The notes below the pieces were generated by a model. The model worked only from the letters and a program-made list of their open reading frames with translations, had not been told where the DNA came from and did not search any database. This document shows, piece after piece, positions 829-21,784 of a stretch of 55,589 nt of DNA. Source of the DNA: Cyanobacteriota bacterium (GTDB lineage: Bacteria; Cyanobacteriota; Cyanobacteriia; Cyanobacteriales; Microcoleaceae). Every line of letters begins with the position of its first letter. The stretch's first letter is position 1. Position numbers and translations under genes: made by a program. Where the stretch lies: contig JANYGO010000141.1 in the NCBI GenBank assembly GCA_025362325.1, positions 1 to 55,589 on the forward strand. The letters run 5' to 3'.

Positions 829-3800
829 TTAAATTAAACTGAAATCGCTGGCGCTTATTCTGCTAGCAGAAACTCCGTTTAAAGCAGCAATAATTTCTCC
901 TGTTTGCACAAACTGAATGAATGTTGCACCGCTATTTTCAGTAAGAGTTAATTGCTCGAATGTCAAGCCATTAGCTAGCATCAGCAAATCTTTTCCAGCT
1001 TCAAAATCGGCAATAATATCGATACCAGAATTGGCAGACAGTAAAAAGCGATCGCTCCCAGCACCTCCAATTAAACAATCATCCCCCAAACCGCCCATCA
1101 GAGTATCATTACCTTTGCCACCAATCAAAGTATCATTTTCCTCGCATCCATCTAGCAAATCATTGCCCGCACCTCCAGTCAGACAATCATTGCCAGCACC
1201 TCCGCAGAGGGTATCATCACCCAAATTGCCGTAGAGAGAATCCTCCCCTTCGCTGCCGAAGATTATATCATTTCCCTTGCCTCCAAATAGGATATCGCTG
1301 CCTTTGCCGCCGTCGATAAAATCAGCACCTTCATCGCCAAAAATTAAGTCGTCGTCTTCTTTACCATTTATTGAATCATTGCCGCGATTTCCGAAGATGA
1401 TATCTTCGCCTTCACCGCCAAGGATGATGTCATTATTCTTACCGCCAAAAAGGATATCATCTCCGTGGTTGCCCTCAATGAAATCATTGCCTCGGTTGCC
1501 GTAAAGGATGTCGTCTTCTTCACCGCCGTAGAGGTTGTCATCGCCTAAATCCGCATCGAAAATATTCGGATTGGGGCTGCCGTAAAAAGCATCATTTTCC
1601 GGTGTACCAAACTGAATTTCACCGCTACCATTGCCGTTGATAATCTTGTCAGCTTGGTTTGGGCGATCGACTGTTGGATACTCAATAGTATTGCAAATGC
1701 AATCAGTATCACTTCCTGTTGTTACAACAGGTACTGATGGTGTTGGCGTCGGTGTTGGCGTCGGAGTTTCCGCAGGCGTCGGTGTTGGCGTTGGCGTCGG
1801 TGTTGGGTTCGGAGTTTCCCCAGGTGTTGGAGTTGGCGTCGGTGTTGGGGTCGGAGTTTCCGCAGGCGTTGGCGTTGGTGTTGGCGTCGGATTTTCAGCA
1901 GCAGTCGGCGTCGGAGTAGAAGTTTCCGCAGGCGTCGGAGTGGTTGGCGTCGGAGTTGTTGGAGTCGGAGTTGTCGGAGTCGGAGTTGTTGGAGTCGGAG
2001 TGGTTGGAGTCGGAGTGGTTGGAGTCGGAGTTGTCGGAGTCGGAGTGGTTGGAGTCGGAGTTGTCGGAGTCGGAGTGGTTGGCGTCGGAGTTGTCGGAGT
2101 CGGAGTGGTTGGCGTCGGAGTGGTTGGAGTCGGAGTTGTCGGAGTCGGAGTTGTCGGAGTCGGAGTGGTTGGCGTCGGAGTTGTCGGAGTCGGAGTTGTA
2201 GGAGTCGGAGTGGTTGGCGTCGGAGTGGTTGGCGTCGGAGTGGTTGGAGTCGGAGTGGTCGGAGTCGGAGTTGTTGGAGTCGGAGTTGTCGGAGTCGGAG
2301 TGGTTGGAGTCGGAGTGGTTGGAGTCGGAGTTGTCGGAGTCGGAGTGGTTGGAGTCGGAGTGGTTGGAGTCGGAGTGGTTGGAGTCGGAGTGGTTGGAGT
2401 CGGAGTGGTTGGAGTCGGAGTGGTTGGAGTCGGAGTGGTTGGATTGACGGTAATATTCACACGATCGCTATCGGTTTGAGCACCGCCTAATTCTGCCGAT
2501 CCGCGATCGTTTGTCGTCAAAGTCAGGGTATCGGTGCCACTAAAGTTCAGATTAGGCGTATAAGTTAAACCATCTAAAGCAGCATTAATATCAGCCTTTT
2601 TTCCGGTATAAATTAGGCTGTTGCTGCCATTCCCCGCTCCGGTAACTCCCGTCAGCGACTTGAGTGTAAGAGTGCCGCTGGTAACGCTGAGATTAACTTC
2701 CACCGACTCGCTATCTGTATCCGATACAGAGATACTATTGCCGTTGCTAGCAGAGAAGATGCGAGGAGTATTTTGAGTCGTCGTTTCTTTGCCGATATCA
2801 GTCGAAATGTCTACACTCCAACTGGCAATATTTCCTGGAGTAGTAGCATTGGAAGCTTTACCATTCTCTTGGTTGGCATCAACTGCATACAATTTCCAAG
2901 TACCGTTGGGGTTAGTTTTGTTAAAAACAGAAAGAGTCGAACCGTAAGGTCCTTCTGGTGCTCCTGTCGGTGTTGGCGTATTGTTATTATACAAAAAGGG
3001 ATAAATATCACGAGCATTGTTTAACGAATAGTTACTCGGTTTGTAGTTGCCTGAAGCGATAGTTGGTAATGTATAATTATAAAAATCATAAAGAAAAGAG
3101 GCTGCATTATCATCCAACTTCAGCGTGACGTTGTTGAGTGGTGCAGATGGAACGTGAGACATTAACACCACATTTTGTCCATCGGGCCCAACTAGCAAGA
3201 GGTTGATGTTCTGTGGTCCACCATTGACAGAGTTAGAAGTTTTAACATTGTTGAGAGTGATGGTAACGCTGTCAACTTTTCCTGTTACACCTGAAACGTC
3301 AATAGCAGACGGATAGGGTGTTGCTAAAACGTTATATACCAAGTCTCCGCTGTTGATGGTAATGTTATTAGGGTTACTTGTAGTGGTGGTGGTTCTTCCC
3401 GGTATTGAATTAATAGGAGATAGATTGCGACGGGAAAATTCCGAGGTACCCCCTGTAGTTTTGTTAGTAGCAGTAGCAGCGAGAACCGGTTTGCCTGCTA
3501 CTGGAGTGTAGGCGAAGTTGATATTAGCATTGCCAGCGTTATCTGTAGTAACGTCTTGGAAGCCAAGGAAAGTTTGACCTTGACCTGCACCTGCTGGGTC
3601 ATAACTGCTATTAGCAAAGAATTCGACGCGGAAGTTGGCGTTAGGACTGCTGTTGAGAATGCCGCTGACTGTGTTGCCACTAACTGAGGTCAGAACAGGG
3701 TAATTTTGCAGATTGTTGCTGCCTGTATCAGCGTCCCCTAAATCGTTGGGAGTGATGCCAGTATTACCGATTAAGTCAATACCTAAACGTTTGTTGTTAA

Positions 3801-5394
3801 AAATGCTATTCCCTTGTATTGTGTTACTGTTGGCATTTTTACTAGCAACCTCAATCCCGCTGCCGCTATTGTTGGCAATGATATTACCTTCTCCCGGTGC
3901 AGTGCCACCGATAGTATTATTGGAGTTTTTGCCTAAGATAAAAATGCCATCACCGTTGTTACCTAAAGCTATTGCACCCGTGGAATCAGTCCCGATGTAA
4001 TTGCCAGTAATTTTGGTGTTTTTGACACCTTCCTGCACAAGAAATATGCCTGTTAAGCCGTTACCAGAGATGACGTTGCGGGAGATAATATTGCCTGTTA
4101 TAGGCGTGACATTAAGAGAATTGTTTTGAGTGTAATTTTGGATTCTGAGCCCACTGCTAGTGTTCCCGACAGCAGTCGTACCGCTAATATCAGTACCAAT
4201 GTAGTTATCTTGGATGGTATTGTTATTAGTTGTCACCAGAATGCCGTTGCTCGGAAAATTGGCGCCCTTTCCAAATCCGTTAATAACCAATCCTTGAATG
4301 GTACTGCCACTGGAATTTTCGGCGCCGCCAAAAGGGCTTTTGCCTAACTCTAAACCAGTGATAGAAGGAGAGTTTACAGATGAGGAGGCTGGTTGTTGTA
4401 CTAAACTGCCATTGAGTTCGATAATTGGTTTGCCAGCATATCCGGGTTGAGATTTGCCATTGATAATAACTGGGCTGGTGATGACAGGTAAAGCTTGATT
4501 AAAAAGGGTAATGGTATGAGGGCCAGTGCCGGAAATGTTAAAGTTAATTGTGTCTAATCCGGGATTGGAATTGGCTTTGTCGATCGCACTTCGCAGAGAA
4601 CCATCACCGCTATCATCCGTATTAATTACGGTATAGGTAGCCAAAACAGACGCATAATTTTGCATCGCGTCTGACTCGAATGCTAGGGGCGCTTTAATGT
4701 TGCCGATTTTTTCTTCTAGTTCCCAATTGCCACCTAATTTTGCACTCCCTGTGAGATGCTTGGATGCGGCGATATTTGCACCGGTGAGGGATGCAATGCG
4801 GTGGAGGAATTGGACACTATTTACGGCTGGTTCATCGAGTCCGCCGGGGGATGAAACCCCCGTCTCATAGCAAAAGTCCTCTAAAGAGGACTGTTTAATG
4901 AAATTGTTTTTAGTCGGTTTCAACCGACTTTCACTTTGAGACAGGGGATTTATTCCCTGGCGGACTTTCTGACAAGCGCGGGATGCTGCTACATTGCAGC
5001 CGTAAATTAGGATGTCTGCATCAATTGTTAAAGCGCGTCGCCATTGCTGCCATTGCTGGCTATAATCTTCTAGGTTATCAACAGACAGTCTGGTTTTACC
5101 GAGTTGCAAGCTTCCCGGTTCGCCGTGGGAAACTAGATGAATGCTGTCAATATTAGTGCGATTAGCTAGCACTTCGCTAATTTGTTCGACTCCATCTCTG
5201 TGCGAGTCGATAACTATTGCTTCTACTCCCAATTTCACTCCATCTAGGAGTGTTTGATAGTCTGCTACGGCCGTATCGATAAATACTATTGTACTGGGGT
5301 TATTGGGCCGATCGCTCTTTTCCCCAAAACTCCCATTGCCGGCGTTGATTTGATCCGGAAGTTCGATCGCACCTGCTGATAAAACTGGTATCAT
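829..5394 (-). CDS. Large secreted surface protein: DUF4347, beta-helix, P domain, Thr-Pro linker, RTX repeats
   Basis: Multidomain protein of 1521 residues. Order: DUF4347 at about 35-250 ([40 protein letters not shown], ending [19 protein letters not shown]); a right-handed beta-helix with many Asn-rich turns at about 255-560; a proprotein-convertase P-type domain at about 670-860; a cadherin-like stretch at about 880-985; a Thr/Pro linker of about 235 residues; then RTX repeats (GGxGNDxLxGG) at about 1260-1480 and a C-terminal D-F-E-A-G-K-D block typical of RTX tails. RTX repeats bind calcium outside the cell and the C-terminus usually carries a type I secretion signal; no Sec signal is evident. 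Likely an adhesin or sheath protein (inference). Residues about 143-185 come from an inserted mobile repeat that kept the frame open. The gene is monocistronic. Confidence 0.85.
1932..2445. repeat. 15-bp tandem array (about 34 copies) coding for Thr-Pro pentapeptides
   Basis: The plus strand reads ggagtcggagtggtt over and over, four units per 60 bases, which on the coding strand gives Pro-Thr-Pro-Thr-Thr. Units differ at few sites (gtt/gtc/gtg, ggagtc/ggcgtc). The adjoining 1735-1930 holds a looser Pro-Thr/Glu-Thr-Pro version. Because the period is a multiple of three, copy-number change would alter linker length without frameshift. Both strands are stop-free here, producing long false Val-Gly and Ser-Glu frames on the other strand. 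Confidence 0.9.
4840..4964. repeat. MITE-like palindromic element inside the DUF4347 coding region
   Basis: The segment starts tccgccgggggatgaaaccc and ends, read on the opposite strand, tccgccagggaataaatccc; both arms then run to tctca, so the inverted ends are about 28 bases with a few mismatches. Two smaller hairpins lie inside (agtcctctttagaggact and agtcggttgaaaccgact). It encodes about 42 residues with no counterpart in DUF4347, between the CNVAAS strand and the TGANIAAS end block of the domain. Confidence 0.7.
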
Positions 5395-7032: not shown

Positions 7033-9069
7033 ATGCCCGGCCCGAGCCCTGACGGTCTTTCCTATCTTTTAGATGATAGCCCCAACAGTTTCGCCTTAAC
7101 TCCGGGCTTTTTGACTCCTTATCCTAACGGACTTTTTGCCCTCGGCGGCAACGATTTTATTGTCGGTTCGTCGGATGCCGATCGCCTCAACGGTGATAAT
7201 GGTAACGACAGACTCCTCGGCGGCGGCAATTCCGATACACTCTTCGGCGGTGTCGGGAATGACTTGCTTAACGGCGGTACCGGCAACGACTTCCTGTTTG
7301 GCGGCAAGGGCAGCGATACCTTGCAGGGAGGTAGGGGAGATGATGCCCTCTACGGCGGCAACGGTAGCGACGTTTTAGTGGGAGATGGAGGCAAAGATAC
7401 GCTGACAGGGGGTTTGGGCGCAGATACCTTTGTCCTCCGCAGCAACTCCTCCGTTTCCGCTCCGGCTGTTGCTGACATAATTACTGACTTTAACAGTTTT
7501 GAGGATGCGATCGGACTAACTAACAACCTGACCGAAGCTGACCTCACTTTGGAAGCAGTTTCCGGCACTGGCAATACATTAATTAAAATTCGCCAATCCG
7601 GTGCTATTTTAGGCTTGGTAGCCAACGCATCTCCACAAGACCTCGCGGGTAAGTTCATCTCTGCAACTACCGTATTGGGAAATCAACTCAGTCAAGCTCG
7701 CGATTTAGGCGTTTTGAGCGGCACTCAAACCATCGCAGACTCGGTTAGCAACGCTCAGCCAGAGGATCTTTACAGTTTTACTTTGCCTGCAACCAGCGAC
7801 TTTAAATTAAGTGTGAGTGGTTTGAGTGCGGATCTTGACGTTGCTGTCATTAAAGATATTAACGGCAACAATACTGTTGACTTTACCGATATTATTGCTT
7901 CTGCTAAAGAATCTAGTTTATCGCCACAATCGATCGACCTCAATGCGTTGGCAGCAGGAACGTACTACGTCCGAGTCGATCGATACCAAAGCAGTACCAA
8001 CTTTACCCTAAATCTGTCTGCAACCCCTGCAACTGTGCCTGCTAACAATCCCAGCAACTTGCCGGGTTTTGATTCTCGTTCCGGGTACGGTTTGGTGAAT
8101 GCCGCGGCCGCAGTTGCTAAAGCTGAAAATGTGGCAACTTTTCCTGACGTTCCCGACTTGGGCGGCAACAACTGGGGCAGAGATTTAATTAAAGCTCCCG
8201 AGGTTTGGGCCCAGGGGATTACTGGGCAGGGGGTTGTCGTAGCGGTTATTGACAGCGGAGTTGACTACAATCACCCCGATTTGATGGGGAATATTTGGAG
8301 CAATCCGGGAGAAACCGGCCTTGACGCGGCCGATCGAAATAAAGCTAGCAACGGGATTGATGACGATGGCAATGGCTTTGTTGACGATTCCCGGGGATGG
8401 GATTTTGTTAACAACGACAATAACCCGATGGACGATAACAACCACGGCACTCATATTGCGGGTTTAATTGCTGCGAAAATGAATAGTGGAGTGGGGATTA
8501 CTGGAACGGCTCCGAGTGCCAAGATTATGCCCTTGAAAATACTCGATGCGTCGGGGGTAGGGAAAATTACCGATGAAATTAATGCGATTAATTATGCGGT
8601 GGCAAATGGGGCGAAGGTTATTAATGTGAGTTTGGGCGGCCAACAGTTCAACGATCGGGAATTGAATGCGATTCGAGCGGCCGAAGCTAAAGGTGTGGTG
8701 GTGGTTTCGGCGGCGGGAAATAGTTCTAGCACGCAGGTAGATTATCCGGGTCGGTTTGCAAATGAGGTAGGAATTGTTGTCGGTGCTGTTACTCGGAACG
8801 GCTTGTTTGCGAATTATTCTAACCAGGCGGGAACGCAGCCGATCGATTATTTGCTTGCTCCGGGGGGCGATGGCAAGTCTGATCCTGGGGATATTTATTC
8901 AACTGTGCCGCTGTCTCAACCGGGGGTTCCCTATCGATATTTTGCGGGTACTTCAATGGCAGTGCCACACGTAGTTGGGGTGATAGCTTTGATGTTGCAA
9001 GCTAATGCGAGTCTGACTCCTGCTCAAATTAAGCAGATTCTGGCGGAAACGGCGAATCGAACAGTTTAA
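7033..9069 (+). CDS. Secreted subtilisin-like serine protease (S8) with N-terminal RTX and PPC domains
   Basis: 678-residue protein. Residues about 35-140 are RTX calcium-binding repeats (GGxGNDxLxGG), followed by an RTX-tail type block. Residues about 225-335 form a bacterial pre-peptidase C-terminal (PPC) beta-sandwich with a DINGNNTVDFTD calcium loop. Residues about 385-678 are the S8 catalytic domain: Asp407 (AVIDSGVDYNHPDL), His471 (NNHGTHIAGL), Asn563 (SAAGNSS) and Ser641 (AGTSMAVPH), a complete triad plus oxyanion Asn. A GYGLVNAAAAVAKA block, which in ordinary subtilases follows the catalytic domain, lies before it at about residue 355. The start is supported by TAGGAG nine bases upstream of the ATG. 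Probably exported without a Sec signal, as in other RTX proteins. Likely role: extracellular protein degradation or processing. Confidence 0.9.
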   Translation: MPGPSPDGLSYLLDDSPNSFALTPGFLTPYPNGLFALGGNDFIVGSSDADRLNGDNGNDRLLGGGNSDTLFGGVGNDLLNGGTGNDFLFGGKGSDTLQGGRGDDALYGGNGSDVLVGDGGKDTLTGGLGADTFVLRSNSSVSAPAVADIITDFNSFEDAIGLTNNLTEADLTLEAVSGTGNTLIKIRQSGAILGLVANASPQDLAGKFISATTVLGNQLSQARDLGVLSGTQTIADSVSNAQPEDLYSFTLPATSDFKLSVSGLSADLDVAVIKDINGNNTVDFTDIIASAKESSLSPQSIDLNALAAGTYYVRVDRYQSSTNFTLNLSATPATVPANNPSNLPGFDSRSGYGLVNAAAAVAKAENVATFPDVPDLGGNNWGRDLIKAPEVWAQGITGQGVVVAVIDSGVDYNHPDLMGNIWSNPGETGLDAADRNKASNGIDDDGNGFVDDSRGWDFVNNDNNPMDDNNHGTHIAGLIAAKMNSGVGITGTAPSAKIMPLKILDASGVGKITDEINAINYAVANGAKVINVSLGGQQFNDRELNAIRAAEAKGVVVVSAAGNSSSTQVDYPGRFANEVGIVVGAVTRNGLFANYSNQAGTQPIDYLLAPGGDGKSDPGDIYSTVPLSQPGVPYRYFAGTSMAVPHVVGVIALMLQANASLTPAQIKQILAETANRTV

Positions 9070-15837: not shown

Positions 15838-16191
15838 CTATGATATTTCTCGATATGGACGATTGACTCTAACCAGCGTCCCTCTCAATGTTTCCACATT
15901 AGAAATAGCATCCGAAATTCGTGTAGCCATCCTCTGTCTGTCCTGTTGGTCGTCTTTACAGACAATGATACCAGCATGGTTAGGTTGTGAAGCGTGCAGT
16001 CGGATAAAATCGATTCTATTGAGTGTTAAAACTGCCCGTTCATTTGTAACAGCAAAAGCCCGGACATCTTCATCAGGAATGCCCAGATTTGCGTTCCTCG
16101 CTTCTTTTACAGTAAGCACATCGTGACCTAGATCGCGAAGTAGTTCAACTACTATCCTAGGAAATTGTTCATCTGCATACAAACGTGCCAT
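15838..16191 (-). CDS. DUF5615 PIN-like protein, probable toxin of a DUF433/DUF5615 pair
   Basis: 117 residues. It has the DUF5615/Mut7-C-like opening LYADEQFPRIVVELLRDLGHDV, then IPDEDVRAFAVTNERAVLTLNRIDFIRLH and HAGIIVCKDDQ. The acidic residues (Asp7-Glu8, Asp56-Glu57-Asp58 region and Asp near 80) correspond to the metal site of PIN-like ribonucleases. The start lies 4 bases after the stop of the DUF433 gene, the typical antitoxin-then-toxin order. By family this is a type II toxin-antitoxin module of VapC-like logic; activity here is inferred. Confidence 0.8.
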   Translation of the reverse strand: MARLYADEQFPRIVVELLRDLGHDVLTVKEARNANLGIPDEDVRAFAVTNERAVLTLNRIDFIRLHASQPNHAGIIVCKDDQQDRQRMATRISDAISNVETLRGTLVRVNRPYREIS

Positions 16192-16195
16192 TCTG

Positions 16196-16522
16196 TTAAT
16201 CTATGTCGTTCAACTTAATTGCTGCTTCAATCTCGTCAGGAAATGCTTCAGCATAAGCCCAGGCATTTTTTAAATCGCTATCACTAATATGCGGATAATC
16301 TGCTAAAAGTTGAGCGTCAGTCGCGCCTAATCGACGAGACTCTACCAGTCCCCAAACAGAAATTCGAGTCCCTGCAATCCTGGCATTACCGCCGACAACA
16401 CCGGGAGTTTTTTCAATTAAGTGCCAAGCGTTAGCTAAACTTTGAGCTAATATCTGTATTGCTCGAGCTTTTTCAGCCGGAGTCAGGGAAAGCAGTTGCG
16501 GTTCTAATTCTTTTAGTGTCAT
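16196..16522 (-). CDS. DUF433 protein, probable antitoxin
   Basis: 108 residues. The N-terminal ~40 residues form a helical linker (LSLTPAEKARAIQILAQSLA). The C-terminal ~65 residues are the DUF433 winged-helix-like domain: KTPGVVGGNARIAGTRISVW, LVESRRLGATDAQLLADYPHI and DLKNAWAYAEAFPDEIE. It precedes and nearly abuts the DUF5615 gene, so the two are almost certainly cotranscribed. DUF433 proteins bind DNA and are expected to autoregulate. A close paralogue is encoded at 19497-19823. Confidence 0.8.
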   Translation of the reverse strand: MTLKELEPQLLSLTPAEKARAIQILAQSLANAWHLIEKTPGVVGGNARIAGTRISVWGLVESRRLGATDAQLLADYPHISDSDLKNAWAYAEAFPDEIEAAIKLNDID

Positions 16523-16777: not shown

Positions 16778-19300
16778 TCAATTATTAGGCAAAGACTGCC
16801 AAAAAGGCCGCGGTTCAGGCTGCCTCACAGTATTCGTCGCCGACTGCACGTTTCCTTTCAATTCTTGATAATACCTGTCATCCAGAAAACTAACACTAAC
16901 GCCAGCCGGAATTAGCAATTGGCGCAATCTTTCTTGAGTGTAATCTTTGCCGTCAATCATCGCCCCGCGCGGATTGGAAACTAACAACTTGCCGTTAACT
17001 GGCACCGAATTTACCATATTCGGCCACCAAGCATAACCGCTGTAGCCAAACATCATTGGAACTTGAACGATTTGGTCGTCAGTGAGGGAAAACTCTTTTT
17101 TCAACTTATCTAAAATCGGATTAATTTTCTGCTTTTGCAAATTGAGATTGTGTTGAATTAAAGCGGGATTTCTCAAAGCCGCACTGACAGTTGTTTGAGT
17201 GCTCAAACCGCGATTGATCGCAGCCTCGCCATAACCTTTGCCCACCAATTCTTCCAATAGTCTAACTCCGGCTTCTGGACTGGCGATCGCCATTATATAC
17301 TTTCCGGGAGTTTGACTGGGAATAAAATTGATAATTTCATCGACTTGACGAGTCAAAAGCCAAGAAGTATCAATATCCACCGCCGGCCCTTGAATTTTTT
17401 GAGCTTGAATAAAATCAAGTACCTCTGGATTAAAACCAGCATTCCCCGAATTTCCGTAATAAACTCGACCCATTGGATATCCGGGAATCGGCGGAGTCAC
17501 CTGCAAATTTCCGTATCCATCAGACCACTGATTAACCGGGTCTAAGGAGCGAGGCTTGCCAATTTTAAATACTCTCAAATCTCGCTCTTGAGTTGATTGA
17601 TCAGGCTGTTTTTTGTCGGGATCGCGATTGCTTTTTATGGCTACATTAAATTGGCGCAGCTCTGATTTTTCGGGAACCTGAACGTAGCCGTTTTTCTGAA
17701 TGTCTTGCATCCAAGCATTATCGCCCTGGATAATTTTCACTTGAGCGCCTGTGGGTTCTACAGCTTGTTTGAGTTGGGAGATAAATTCACTGTTTGCCGC
17801 GCCTCTGTCGCTGACCTCGACTTCTTTTACAGGTGCGGTATTTGGCGCGAGCATCCAAGGACTGACGCCCATTTGGATGGTGGCGGCGGCGATTTGTTGA
17901 CCGTTGTTTTCAGCAGTTGCTTTGAGATTAACTTTGCCGTTCCAGTTGCGATCGGCAAATTGTTTTGCTTCCACACCTAATACAATATTCGTGCTGAAAA
18001 CCAGGGGTTTAGCACCGGATATATCTACAGGTTGCCAGCCGTCACCTGTTTTCTGAAAAACGCTGATGTGAGGGCTGGCAATGGTATCAGCAGTGATAAA
18101 TAATTGAGAGGTTTTGAAGTTTTCAGACAGGATTAAGTTAACTTGAGAAAGCATTGCTGCGCGGCGGGGGACGCTAACTTTGGTTTCTTGCCAAATCGGT
18201 ATTTTGCTGCGGCGATCGTTTTGGCGATCGTCAAATAGAATTAGCGCGCCGCTGGACAGTGACCATTGTTCTTTTCCGGCTTCGTCTAGCTGATTAATGT
18301 TGCCGTCTCTGTTAGTATCTCCCGCAAAGAAGAAGTTCGACGGCGAGGCGGGGGGCGTTACTGGGCTGGGAGTTGCGGTTGCGGTTGATTTAGGAGTTGG
18401 TTGAGGAGTTGCTGGTTGATTTAGTTCTAATTGTTGTCTTTGTTGTTCTTTTAGGGCTAATTCTTGCTTTTCTAATTCTTGTCTGGTTAGTTCTTTTAGT
18501 GCTAATTCTTGCCTTTCTTTTGCTTGGCGGGCGACTTCTTGTTTTTCTTGTTTTTGGCGGACTAATTCTTGCCTTGCAAATTCTTGTTTTTCTAGTTCTC
18601 TGCGGGCGAATTCTTTTTTCTCTTGTTCTTTTCTCTCTATTTCGCGGCGAGCAAATTCTTTTTGTTCTTGCTCTTTTCGGGCGATTTCTCTTACCTGTTC
18701 TTCCTCGGCTCTAATTTTGGCAACAGAACGTGCTACTTGCCATTCGTAGGTAGCGACGGTGAGATTTCCTTGATATTCGATGGTTTTGTCGATCGCAGCC
18801 TCAGCCAACAAAGAACCGTGGGGAATGAGTCGCAGGGTATTGAGAGCAATCTGCCACAGGCGTTGTGACTGTTCCCAAGTAGCGGGATCGGCTTTAGAAG
18901 TGCGTCCAATGACGACGGCTTGGGAGGCTATTCTAGCGGCTTCGTCCCAATTATTTTTGGCTTGTTTTTCTATTTGAATCTGATTTTGAACGTTTTGCAG
19001 TTGCTGCGTCAGAGTTTGGGATTGCTGGCGGGGGCTTTCTGGTTTCCAATATTCGGGGGAAAACAGGCTGCTGTCGGGAGTTTTGGCAAGGTTATCTAAT
19101 TGTACTTTGAGGCGATCGCGCAATTTGTAGAGTTCCGAAAGGGATTGCGGAGTTTCGGCGTCTGGCTGTCGCGCAGAGATTGCGAGTTGGTAGTTGAGGG
19201 AAGGTTGGGCCAGCGTTTGGGGGACTGCTACCCAGATAATCCCGATGACGACACCGAAAGCATTGATAATGGCGATCGCAATATATTTAACCAAACGCAT
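16778..19300 (-). CDS. Peptidylarginine deiminase-like protein with membrane anchor and coiled coil; catalytic residues lost
   Basis: 840 residues. Residues about 7-28 form a signal/anchor helix. Residues about 190-295 are a charged repeat (Lys/Arg/Glu with E-F-A-R-R-E and Q-E-L-A units), probably a long helix. Residues about 320-480 match the PAD middle domain, with the calcium loop DTNRDGNINQLDE and GALILFDD. Residues about 500-840 match the PAD catalytic domain (PF03068): DNAWMQD (Asp533), GYGNLQVTPP, YPMGRVYYG, SWLLTRQVDEIINFIP, LVSNPRGAMIDGKDY and a C-terminal GNVQSATN. In active PADs the catalytic motifs are GHVDE and EVHCGTN. Here the His position is Gln652 and the Cys position is Ser820; Asp533 and Asp654 remain. 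Citrullination is therefore unlikely, while calcium or arginine binding may persist. The domain call is strong; the role is unknown. Confidence 0.8.
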   Translation of the reverse strand: MRLVKYIAIAIINAFGVVIGIIWVAVPQTLAQPSLNYQLAISARQPDAETPQSLSELYKLRDRLKVQLDNLAKTPDSSLFSPEYWKPESPRQQSQTLTQQLQNVQNQIQIEKQAKNNWDEAARIASQAVVIGRTSKADPATWEQSQRLWQIALNTLRLIPHGSLLAEAAIDKTIEYQGNLTVATYEWQVARSVAKIRAEEEQVREIARKEQEQKEFARREIERKEQEKKEFARRELEKQEFARQELVRQKQEKQEVARQAKERQELALKELTRQELEKQELALKEQQRQQLELNQPATPQPTPKSTATATPSPVTPPASPSNFFFAGDTNRDGNINQLDEAGKEQWSLSSGALILFDDRQNDRRSKIPIWQETKVSVPRRAAMLSQVNLILSENFKTSQLFITADTIASPHISVFQKTGDGWQPVDISGAKPLVFSTNIVLGVEAKQFADRNWNGKVNLKATAENNGQQIAAATIQMGVSPWMLAPNTAPVKEVEVSDRGAANSEFISQLKQAVEPTGAQVKIIQGDNAWMQDIQKNGYVQVPEKSELRQFNVAIKSNRDPDKKQPDQSTQERDLRVFKIGKPRSLDPVNQWSDGYGNLQVTPPIPGYPMGRVYYGNSGNAGFNPEVLDFIQAQKIQGPAVDIDTSWLLTRQVDEIINFIPSQTPGKYIMAIASPEAGVRLLEELVGKGYGEAAINRGLSTQTTVSAALRNPALIQHNLNLQKQKINPILDKLKKEFSLTDDQIVQVPMMFGYSGYAWWPNMVNSVPVNGKLLVSNPRGAMIDGKDYTQERLRQLLIPAGVSVSFLDDRYYQELKGNVQSATNTVRQPEPRPFWQSLPNN

Positions 19301-19496: not shown

Positions 19497-19823
19497 TTAA
19501 TCAGCCTCATTTCTAGTAATTGCCTGTTCAATTTCTTCGGGGTAAGCATCAGCATAAGCCCAAGCATTGACTAAATCAGCCGCAGTCAAATGGGGATAGA
19601 ACTTCAAAAGTTCAGCATCACTAGATCCGAGACGGCGATAACCCACAAGTACCCAAACTTGTATGCGAGTATTGCCAACACAGGCATCGCCGCCACACAC
19701 GCCGGGAGTTTTTTTAATGCCCAGAGAACCGTTGGTTAAAGTTTGAGTTAGGATGCTGATGAGTTTAGCTTTATCAGCGAGATTTAAGGTTGAGACTTGA
19801 GTTTCTAATTCTTGTATGGTCAT
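19497..19823 (-). CDS. DUF433 protein, orphan antitoxin paralogue
   Basis: 108 residues, collinear over its whole length with the DUF433 protein at 16196-16522. Shared blocks are KTPGVxGGxAxxxxTRIxVW, GYRRLGSSDAELLKFYPHL and NAWAYADAYPEEIE. The toxin normally following it is reduced to a stub. An antitoxin without its toxin may persist as a DNA-binding regulator or protect against the related pair 3 kb away; both ideas are inference. The start ATG is preceded by a HIP1-like gcgatc site. Confidence 0.8.
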   Translation of the reverse strand: MTIQELETQVSTLNLADKAKLISILTQTLTNGSLGIKKTPGVCGGDACVGNTRIQVWVLVGYRRLGSSDAELLKFYPHLTAADLVNAWAYADAYPEEIEQAITRNEAD

Positions 19824-20539: not shown

Positions 20540-21784
20540 ATGAGTGGAGGACCATTCGGTTGGATTGGTGGAGGCTTCGCTGAGATAGCCTCTCAAGTTA
20601 ATAAAGTCTTCAGTTCTGATGATGCTAGTGGTAGTAACTCAGGGGAGACACAGGCGAAAACTAATAGCGTGTCTGAAAATAGTAACTCAGGGGAGGCACA
20701 GGCCAGAAGCATTGGCGGATATCAAAGAGCAGGTGAAGTTTGTAATGGACAAAGTGCTTGGTCTCAAGCGTTTGAATTCGATCCGATCACTAACGATGTA
20801 AATACAAAATTAAGAGAATCGGGATGTAAGGGAAAAGCCGGCATTTACCTAATTCGTGATGAACATGATGAGCGAACTCTGTACGTAGGAAAAGCTGAAG
20901 GAACATCTAGAGATATTCTGTCTAGACTGAAAGCTCATTTGACAGGAGAAGGCAATTCTGGAATAAGCGAACGGATTGAGCGAGGAGAAACCGTTACTAT
21001 CAGGTGGGTAGAGTGCGATGACCAGAAAAAATATGAGTCAGTTGTAATGGCATATCTCTTACCTAGTGATAACGAAAGAGCTGAGTATTTGGGTGCTGAA
21101 AGGACACGAATAGAAGAAGAAATAGCGATAGGAATTTTGCTCGATTTACCTTCATTTTGGCATGAAAACTATGAAAAAATGGTAGAAGAAGCACATGAAC
21201 AAGGCTTGTATGTAGCCGGATACGGAAGCAATAGGATAGAAGTGGCAGAAGCTATCTTTTGGCGATGCAATGAAAAAACAAAAGAAAACTATGACGATGA
21301 CCGTGGTAGTGGCGGTAGTAGTTCTAGTAGTGATTCTGAGGATAAAAGCGGCTCTTGGTTCGGTGGTTTGTTCGGGGATAGCTCTGACTCTGAACCGAGT
21401 GATAGTTCTGATAGCAGTAACAGTGATTCTGGCGATAGTGACAATTCTTGGTTCGGTGGTTTCTTCGGCGGTAGCTCTGACTCGGAATCAAGTGATAGTT
21501 CTGATAGCAGTAACAGTGATTCTGACTCAAGTTATAGTTCTGACTCTGGCTCAAGCTATAGTTCCGATTATGGAAGTGGGAATTATGGAAATAGTGGCGA
21601 CTCAGACTATGGAAGTAGTGATTATGGAAGTGGGGATTATGGAGATAGTAGCGACTCTGATAGTGGCTCTAGCAGTAGTGATAGTTACGACTCAGATTCT
21701 GGAAGTAGTGATGACGGAAGTGGGGATTATGGGGATAGTGGCGGATCTGATAGCAGCTCTAGCAGTAGTGATAGTTGGTGGTAA
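20540..21784 (+). CDS. GIY-YIG nuclease-domain protein with long Ser/Asp/Gly-rich tail
   Basis: 414 residues. Residues 1-85 are Gly/Ser rich at the start (GPFGWIGGGFAEI) with a duplicated SNSGE..A unit. Residues about 97-180 are a GIY-YIG domain: Tyr103 in AGIYLI, Tyr115 in LYVGKAEG, Arg129 in LSRLKAHL and Glu166 in YESVVMAYLLPSDNE, so every canonical catalytic position is present. Residues about 180-255 are mixed helical. Residues about 258-414 are almost only Ser, Asp, Gly and Tyr, with two SWFGGxFG blocks, a YGS/YGD section and a final Ser-Trp-Trp. Such tails are typical of disordered, possibly condensate-forming regions (inference). GGAG precedes the start by 9 bases. It heads a same-strand cluster with two membrane proteins. 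Confidence 0.75.
   Translation: MSGGPFGWIGGGFAEIASQVNKVFSSDDASGSNSGETQAKTNSVSENSNSGEAQARSIGGYQRAGEVCNGQSAWSQAFEFDPITNDVNTKLRESGCKGKAGIYLIRDEHDERTLYVGKAEGTSRDILSRLKAHLTGEGNSGISERIERGETVTIRWVECDDQKKYESVVMAYLLPSDNERAEYLGAERTRIEEEIAIGILLDLPSFWHENYEKMVEEAHEQGLYVAGYGSNRIEVAEAIFWRCNEKTKENYDDDRGSGGSSSSSDSEDKSGSWFGGLFGDSSDSEPSDSSDSSNSDSGDSDNSWFGGFFGGSSDSESSDSSDSSNSDSDSSYSSDSGSSYSSDYGSGNYGNSGDSDYGSSDYGSGDYGDSSDSDSGSSSSDSYDSDSGSSDDGSGDYGDSGGSDSSSSSSDSWW

Follow-up and report, generated by a model that had tools for sequence, protein, structure and literature searches.

What becomes of an enzyme that has lost its catalytic residues and is nevertheless still encoded? The question is raised by a peptidylarginine deiminase (PAD)-like gene on a 55,589-nucleotide contig from a member of the Microcoleaceae (JANYGO010000141.1, assembly GCA_025362325.1); this entire contig is the window analyzed here, and all coordinates are window positions. 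A preliminary description of the gene proposed a membrane-anchored pseudoenzyme that has lost the catalytic His and Cys and may bind calcium or arginine-containing targets. The reading we favor, with a probability of roughly 0.72, is that the gene encodes a catalytically dead two-domain PAD, probably exported, that is re-used as a binding or structural part of the cell envelope. The parts of the gene that this argument needs first are:

16778..19300, minus strand: the whole open reading frame of the putative PAD-like pseudoenzyme, 840 amino acids with an ATG start (open reading frame list, Pfam scan)
17996..18346, minus strand: divergent PAD middle domain, residues 319-435 (profile alignment to PAD4)
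16781..17995, minus strand: PAD catalytic (pentein) domain, inactive by sequence, residues 436-840 (Pfam, phmmer, profile alignment)

The homology to PADs and the presence of the PAD catalytic scaffold are borne out by a match to PF03068 (E=4.2e-59; residues 471-834, profile positions 3-394 of 395), the sole Pfam domain above cut-off in the protein; NCBIfam models returned no match for it at E up to 0.01. Among solved structures searched with phmmer the closest are PADs, with PAD1 at the top (E=1.2e-43), and all 27 PDB sequences that a profile made from 33 relatives matched with an E of 0.001 or less are PADs. This profile aligns to positions 103-666 of the PAD4 chain, middle domain included. 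The middle-domain model PF08527 had zero matches in the genome at E up to 1, so that this domain is recognized only through the profile of the relatives.

The positions that decide whether the protein can be an enzyme are the following, each placed by alignments to PAD1, PAD2 and PAD4:

17702..17704, minus strand: Asp533, the counterpart of PAD4 D350, kept
17345..17347, minus strand: Gln652 at the place of the catalytic His471
17339..17341, minus strand: Asp654, the counterpart of PAD4 D473, kept
16841..16846, minus strand: Gln819-Ser820 at the place of His644-Cys645

PAD4 residue numbers were counted along chain 3apn with an offset of 3, and the phmmer alignments to PAD1 and PAD2 give the same residue map as the profile alignment to PAD4. 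Trp530 (W347) is kept together with the two Asp, Gln652 replaces H471, Gln819-Ser820 replaces H644-C645, and the Asp-His-Asp-Cys set (D-H-D-C; sequences that have it are called intact here) reads Asp-Gln-Asp-Ser. The loss of the catalytic His and Cys is therefore confirmed, at exactly the residues first named for it. A substitute was looked for in the protein: its 840 residues contain no Cys at all, which makes a Cys nucleophile from elsewhere in the protein impossible, and none of its three His (161, 411 and 717) occupies the place of H471. His717 is not a relocated catalytic His because 10 of 17 intact relatives have His in the same column and their catalytic His persists as well. A misaligned active site was rejected as an explanation, as the phmmer and profile alignments concur and no Cys is able to move in; so was a lone mutant or sequencing error, given that the Gln652 column is Gln in all 27 Microcoleus copies.

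The survey of orthologues revealed that the loss of the active site is common to the Microcoleaceae. The gene is present in 27 of 29 genomes of the window's genus and in 57 of 61 genomes of the family (the source genome counted in both); judged by kinship with named relatives, this is the family of Microcoleus/Tychonema, Kamptonema, Planktothrix, Arthrospira, Okeania, Trichodesmium and Lyngbya aestuarii. Of the four family genomes without a match, two have a completeness of 55% and 87%. Not one of the 56 readable copies has Cys in the nucleophile column, which holds Ser in 38, Asp in 13, Thr in two, Ala in two and Met in one (L027, whose end is out of frame, was left out of this count, and the split copy L105 was read from its second piece). 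The His column of the 57 family copies holds Gln in 29, Asn in three and His in 25. Each positive genome has a single PF03068 match, with the exception of G422, where two matches are adjacent pieces of one gene in different frames. A second, intact PAD beside the dead copy was thus not found by PF03068 in any positive genome, and the idea that the protein regulates an intact PAD in the same cell was rejected on this ground. All 13 rows with Asp in place of the catalytic Cys read D-H-D-D; they come from Okeania, Trichodesmium and two further genera (L055-L059, L061-L066, L068, L071).

Outside the family, where catalytic residues were read in the fetched loci only (the order-level sample has 47 positives outside the family), D-H-D-C is found in 21 of 22 two-domain rows, 17 of which are from the same order and five from the class, and in all seven three-domain rows chosen for the alignment. 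Each of the 21 intact two-domain rows has exactly one Cys across its PAD domains, and this must be the catalytic one since these rows read D-H-D-C. The single exception, L112 from genome G470, belongs to another family and has Ser for Cys; Lys and Gln occupy its calcium-1 positions, and R372 is gapped. Six of the other seven genomes of that family were read, and all six have D-H-D-C. L112 appears to repeat the Microcoleus pattern independently, in a single genome. Two high-scoring PAD genes of the three-domain type (L039 and L082; the type was assigned without a domain check) each have one in-frame stop inside the match.

The calcium sites have also changed, and here the relevant positions are:

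17693..17695, minus strand: Lys536 at calcium-1 ligand E353 (profile alignment; role of E353 from PMC11402830)
17501..17503, minus strand: Gln600 at calcium-1 ligand E411 (profile alignment; role of E411 from PMC11402830)
18284..18319, minus strand: EF-hand-like loop DTNRDGNINQLD of the calcium-6 region, residues 328-339 (alignment; site-6 residues from PMC8826395)

According to PMC11402830, the calcium-1 ligands of PAD4 are E353, E411 and Q349. Both glutamates are replaced, by Lys536 and Gln600, in all 27 Microcoleus copies, and in this genus the middle-domain acidic cluster, which reads NNDDDD in relatives, is degraded as well. D328, N330, D332 and D339 of the EF-hand-like loop are identical in 57 of 57 family rows, and intact PADs have a nearly identical loop. 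The middle-domain calcium loop first described is thus retained in its EF-hand-like part, whereas E353, E411 and the acidic cluster are not, and the proposed calcium binding is weakened at the activating site. For Microcoleus this suggests that the activating calcium switch is gone and that calcium binding by the outer loop is possible.

Has the loss happened once, and is the protein still maintained? A tree of 70 rows was calculated with the four catalytic columns excluded; it omits the incomplete rows L143, L145 and L157, L190 for its split frame, and L060 and L067, whose organisms are already represented by L174 and L182. The 44 rows without Cys form one clade with support of 100/99, and L112 is the sole row without Cys outside it; L112, L104 and L182 are among the long end branches flagged on the tree. 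The closest intact rows are those of Oscillatoria, Zarconia/M59 and G445. With the fewest changes, Cys was lost twice (in the 44-row clade and in L112), His was also lost twice (in Microcoleus with Kamptonema, and in Arthrospira), Asp533 changed five times and the letter at the nucleophile column six times. The Ser codon is TCN in Microcoleus and Kamptonema and AGT or AGC (AGY) in Planktothrix, and because of these codons the Ser of the two groups must have been reached by different routes. The codons are compatible both with a single loss followed by drift and with several separate losses.

Pairwise Nei-Gojobori dN/dS was computed over residues 436-838 for pairs with a catalytic-domain dS of 0.05-1.2; the Microcoleus set has 21 rows (20 relatives and the window, with L143, L145 and L157 left out). 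Median values for the groups without Cys are 0.189 in Microcoleus (210 pairs), 0.088 in Planktothrix (15), 0.124 in Okeania/Trichodesmium (55) and 0.187 in Kamptonema (one). The intact Oscillatoria (0.192, three pairs) and Phormidium (0.124, six pairs) give similar medians, in a comparison that is rough as few pairs qualify. Values so far below 1 and so similar to those of intact relatives indicate that the protein is maintained, and neutral decay does not fit. In all, 42 columns are invariant in 23 intact rows, and 29 of these are also invariant in the 21 Microcoleus rows, while six are replaced in all 21, namely C645, H644, H471, E353 and columns 473 and 570, the last two with no catalytic role that we can name. 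R372 is replaced in 25 of the 27 Microcoleus copies, the window being one of two that keep the Arg (Arg559). The retention of both Asp, which had been reported for the window protein, stands there and does not extend to its relatives, as four of the 27 Microcoleus copies have Asn for Asp533, and Glu or Gly occur there in other genera. Taken with the absent Cys, the lost His and calcium-1 ligands, and the failure to find an intact paralogue, this purifying selection gives strong support to the pseudoenzyme interpretation, which appears to be right and to extend to the whole family, although the function that we assign remains conditional.

The remainder of the protein bears on where it may act:

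19205..19300, minus strand: hydrophobic N-terminal segment ending in TLA-Q, residues 1-32 (cross-genus alignment, dN/dS)
18716..19201, minus strand: N-terminal domain (NTD), probably helical, residues 34-195 (homology to a domain fused to Beta-lactamase2)
18431..18718, minus strand: charged Glu/Gln/Arg/Lys-rich repeat, the stalk, residues 195-290 (tandem repeats, lengths, composition)

The hydrophobic first 32 residues resemble one another across genera, and since they end at an A-x-A|Q-like site (e.g., TLAQ, AVAQ), cleavage and secretion would be as likely as membrane anchoring. The NTD had no Pfam match in scans of the window protein and of a second protein from the same genome (L195 1357-2685), where it precedes a Beta-lactamase2 domain (PF13354, E=3e-29; 43% identity over 140 residues for the NTD, E=4e-22). 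At least one NTD match was found in 60 of 61 family genomes (one match in seven, two in 37 and three in 16); the second NTD protein was read in its own genome, and in the others it is inferred from frame length. The NTD is also fused to the intact PADs of Zarconia, M59_W2019_021 and G445 (L042, L092, L107, L183 and L191, probably three organisms, with one and the same N-terminus in L092 and L183), which places the fusion before the loss of Cys. A role of the fusion as the trigger of that loss was rejected in view of these five intact rows. The charged stalk had been called unlike animal PADs, and this holds true more widely: the stretch 196-318 measures 104-188 residues in 21 Microcoleus rows versus 11-33 residues in 27 relatives from outside the genus, and the insertion to which the stalk belongs is found in no compared row outside Microcoleus. 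The N-terminal part has no Pfam domain above cut-off, and the tree places the protein apart from the three-domain rows; by PAD_N content, judged without a profile-profile test, it does not appear to be a three-domain PAD of the animal/SPM-NX type.

How might such a protein be used? An exported, NTD-fused cyanobacterial PAD would have lost its Cys in an ancestor of the Microcoleaceae, and its fold would have been kept for a role that needs no chemistry, most likely as a binding or scaffold protein of the periplasm or outer envelope. Attachment to the envelope, or assembly there, may be the task of the NTD; in Microcoleus the long charged helix could serve as a spacer that holds the PAD head off the membrane or wall, and the head would offer a surface for binding or for structure. 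Decay of the His and of the calcium switch would have followed later, in some lineages. As a structural guess, Lys536 and Gln600 may fill the calcium-1 site as a built-in charge, leaving the fold ordered without activation by calcium. The head is constrained while the pocket residues drift, and for this reason we think it likelier that the outer surface is used, or that the head assembles, than that the pocket is used. A bolder and doubtful extension is that a whole PAD lineage turned into an envelope scaffold, stalk-mounted in Microcoleus, in which E353K/E411Q replaces the activating calcium and locks the ordered fold, that this switch occurred twice independently (in Microcoleus and in G470/L112), and that it parallels the lattice protein PADI6. 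If this were the case, PADs that lose their chemistry would tend to turn into structural proteins.

Several observations weigh against the reading that we favor. Planktothrix, Okeania and Trichodesmium copies retain the catalytic His, and 16 of 57 family rows retain both calcium-1 glutamates; with His and calcium-1 decay this uneven, one function shared across the family is not established. A single Cys is found in the PAD domains of five of the 57 rows (column 765, outside the nucleophile column; four rows from the genus Planktothrix and one from Kamptonema). Some copies are broken: the PAD frame of G422 is split, G005 has an out-of-frame end, and G024 and G438 are split in or before the NTD. 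The NTD fusion is no marker of a functional change, as intact relatives have it too. Export is putative, judged probable from the N-terminus alone, and in the 20 loci read no neighbor is conserved across the family.

What else could the protein be? Binding of arginine targets, as first proposed, gives an unlikely alternative in which the nucleophile-free pocket is a guanidinium-binding site that holds arginines of envelope proteins or peptides through Trp530, Asp533 and Asp654. Trp530 is invariant in all 44 tree rows without Cys, Asp654 is kept in 43 of them, and the window protein retains Asp533 and Arg559 as well, so that binding is possible in this protein. However, 12 of the 44 rows have another residue for Asp533, and 24 have another residue or a gap for Arg559, which only two of the 27 Microcoleus copies keep. 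Such drift is unexpected of an arginine-binding pocket under selection, and with both residues repeatedly lost, arginine binding is not a property of the family.

We consider it improbable that the protein is a calcium sensor or calcium-dependent adhesin that works through the EF-hand-like loop, with the PAD head a mere spacer. The identity of the four loop residues throughout the family speaks for this explanation; however, the nearly identical loop of intact PADs means that its role may be structural only, the adjoining acidic cluster is degraded in Microcoleus, and the head is about as constrained as that of intact enzymes. Much less probable still is an enzyme with changed chemistry, with Ser, Thr or Asp for Cys and another residue as the base. 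The uniform D-H-D-D rows (13 of 13) and the dominance of Ser elsewhere agree with it, but the nucleophile column holds five letters, Ala and Met included, His is absent in 32 of 57 copies, and Microcoleus has lost its calcium-1 ligands. A decaying pseudogene, to which the broken copies and the four of 61 genomes without a match might point, is hardly credible and is refuted for the family as far as sequence can do so by dN/dS, by a PF03068 match that in 55 of 57 genomes runs from end to end in a single open frame, and by 93 columns (residues 436-838) that are invariant across the 44 rows without Cys.

The gene neighborhood offers little to the envelope reading. Shared neighbors in the 20 loci are few and are found within Microcoleus or in scattered pairs, save for an amidase (PF01425) and an alpha/beta hydrolase close to three intact PADs (L131 5518-7957, with matching genes in L132 and L133; two families), for which the Pfam scan was made on L131 only. 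These two genes are a possible lead to the role of intact two-domain PADs. In the window, the PAD gene lies between DUF433 genes, with a DUF5615 gene on one side as well (15838-16522 and 19497-19823, minus strand), and relatives of DUF433 lie near the PAD gene in four of six other Microcoleus loci read; we take these neighbors to be toxin-antitoxin-like. Further away, 20540-21784 (plus strand) has a GIY-YIG match just below the curated cut-off (E=2e-4) and a long Ser/Asp/Gly-rich tail, 829-5394 (minus strand) encodes a large DUF4347 protein with RTX calcium-binding repeats, and 7033-9069 (plus strand) a subtilase with RTX repeats and a PPC domain.

The family provides a graded natural record of how enzyme chemistry is lost while the gene is kept, spread over Microcoleus, Planktothrix, Arthrospira, Okeania and Trichodesmium. 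It also suggests an order of loss, with Cys gone from every readable copy and then, unevenly, His, the calcium-1 ligands and the substrate Arg. That nearly all sampled Microcoleaceae keep the protein without its catalytic machinery suggests that the body of the enzyme has been re-used for another job, perhaps at the cell surface. The uniform D-H-D-D rows of Okeania, Trichodesmium and the two other genera are a test case for changed chemistry. The Microcoleaceae contribute 57 of 104 PAD-positive genomes in the order-level sample and five of 27 in the class-level sample, so that a tally of PAD-bearing cyanobacteria that relies on PAD_C takes in organisms that lack the catalytic Cys.

In Cummings et al. 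2021 (PMC8826395), cyanobacterial PADs are counted through their PAD_C match, and the authors report, on the basis of representative sequences, that PADI homologues retain every catalytic residue. The Microcoleaceae are an exception to this published rule. The two-domain bacterial PADs, represented in cyanobacteria by those described as diverging before SPM/NX (PMC8826395), have the same middle and catalytic domains; the Microcoleaceae copies differ from them in breaking the conservation of the catalytic residues. The main text of PMC8826395 names none of Microcoleus, Planktothrix, Trichodesmium and Arthrospira, and the dead sequences may sit in its trees. A search of open-access literature, mostly without full texts and with no supplements, found no report of a dead bacterial PAD, and PMC9174705, in part of its text, names PADI6 alone as enzymatically dead. 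The three-domain cyanobacterial PAD is active and calcium-dependent in vitro (PMC8826395) and has a catalytic domain homologous to that of the window protein; the three-domain rows differ in reading D-H-D-C in seven of seven cases, in having 3-6 Cys in the catalytic domain, in their identity of only about 25-32% and in being without the NTD. The class A beta-lactamase-like protein L195 shares the NTD, likewise after a hydrophobic N-terminus, and differs in its unrelated C-terminal domain.

A closer parallel in outcome is offered by mammalian PADI6, a cytosolic three-domain protein. Its nucleophile is lost or displaced, its calcium-1 glutamates are Ala362 and Met420, it is ordered without calcium, and it is inactive in vitro on standard substrates (PMC11402830); a preprint assigns it a scaffold role in the cytoplasmic lattice of the egg (PMC13060343). 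The Microcoleaceae proteins resemble PADI6 in the PAD fold, the loss of the nucleophile and of the calcium-1 acids (in Microcoleus; elsewhere in the family the acids are partly lost) and the maintenance of the gene. However, PADI6 retains the His and both Asp (PMC11402830; also PMC10542454), whereas part of the Microcoleaceae has also lost the catalytic His and their protein looks exported. The two losses are taken to be independent, PADI6 being outside the set of sequences in the tree. By analogy, then, PADI6 would be the nearest system in kind, and the Microcoleaceae would supply a bacterial counterpart to a protein that currently raises the question of what a dead PAD fold is used for.

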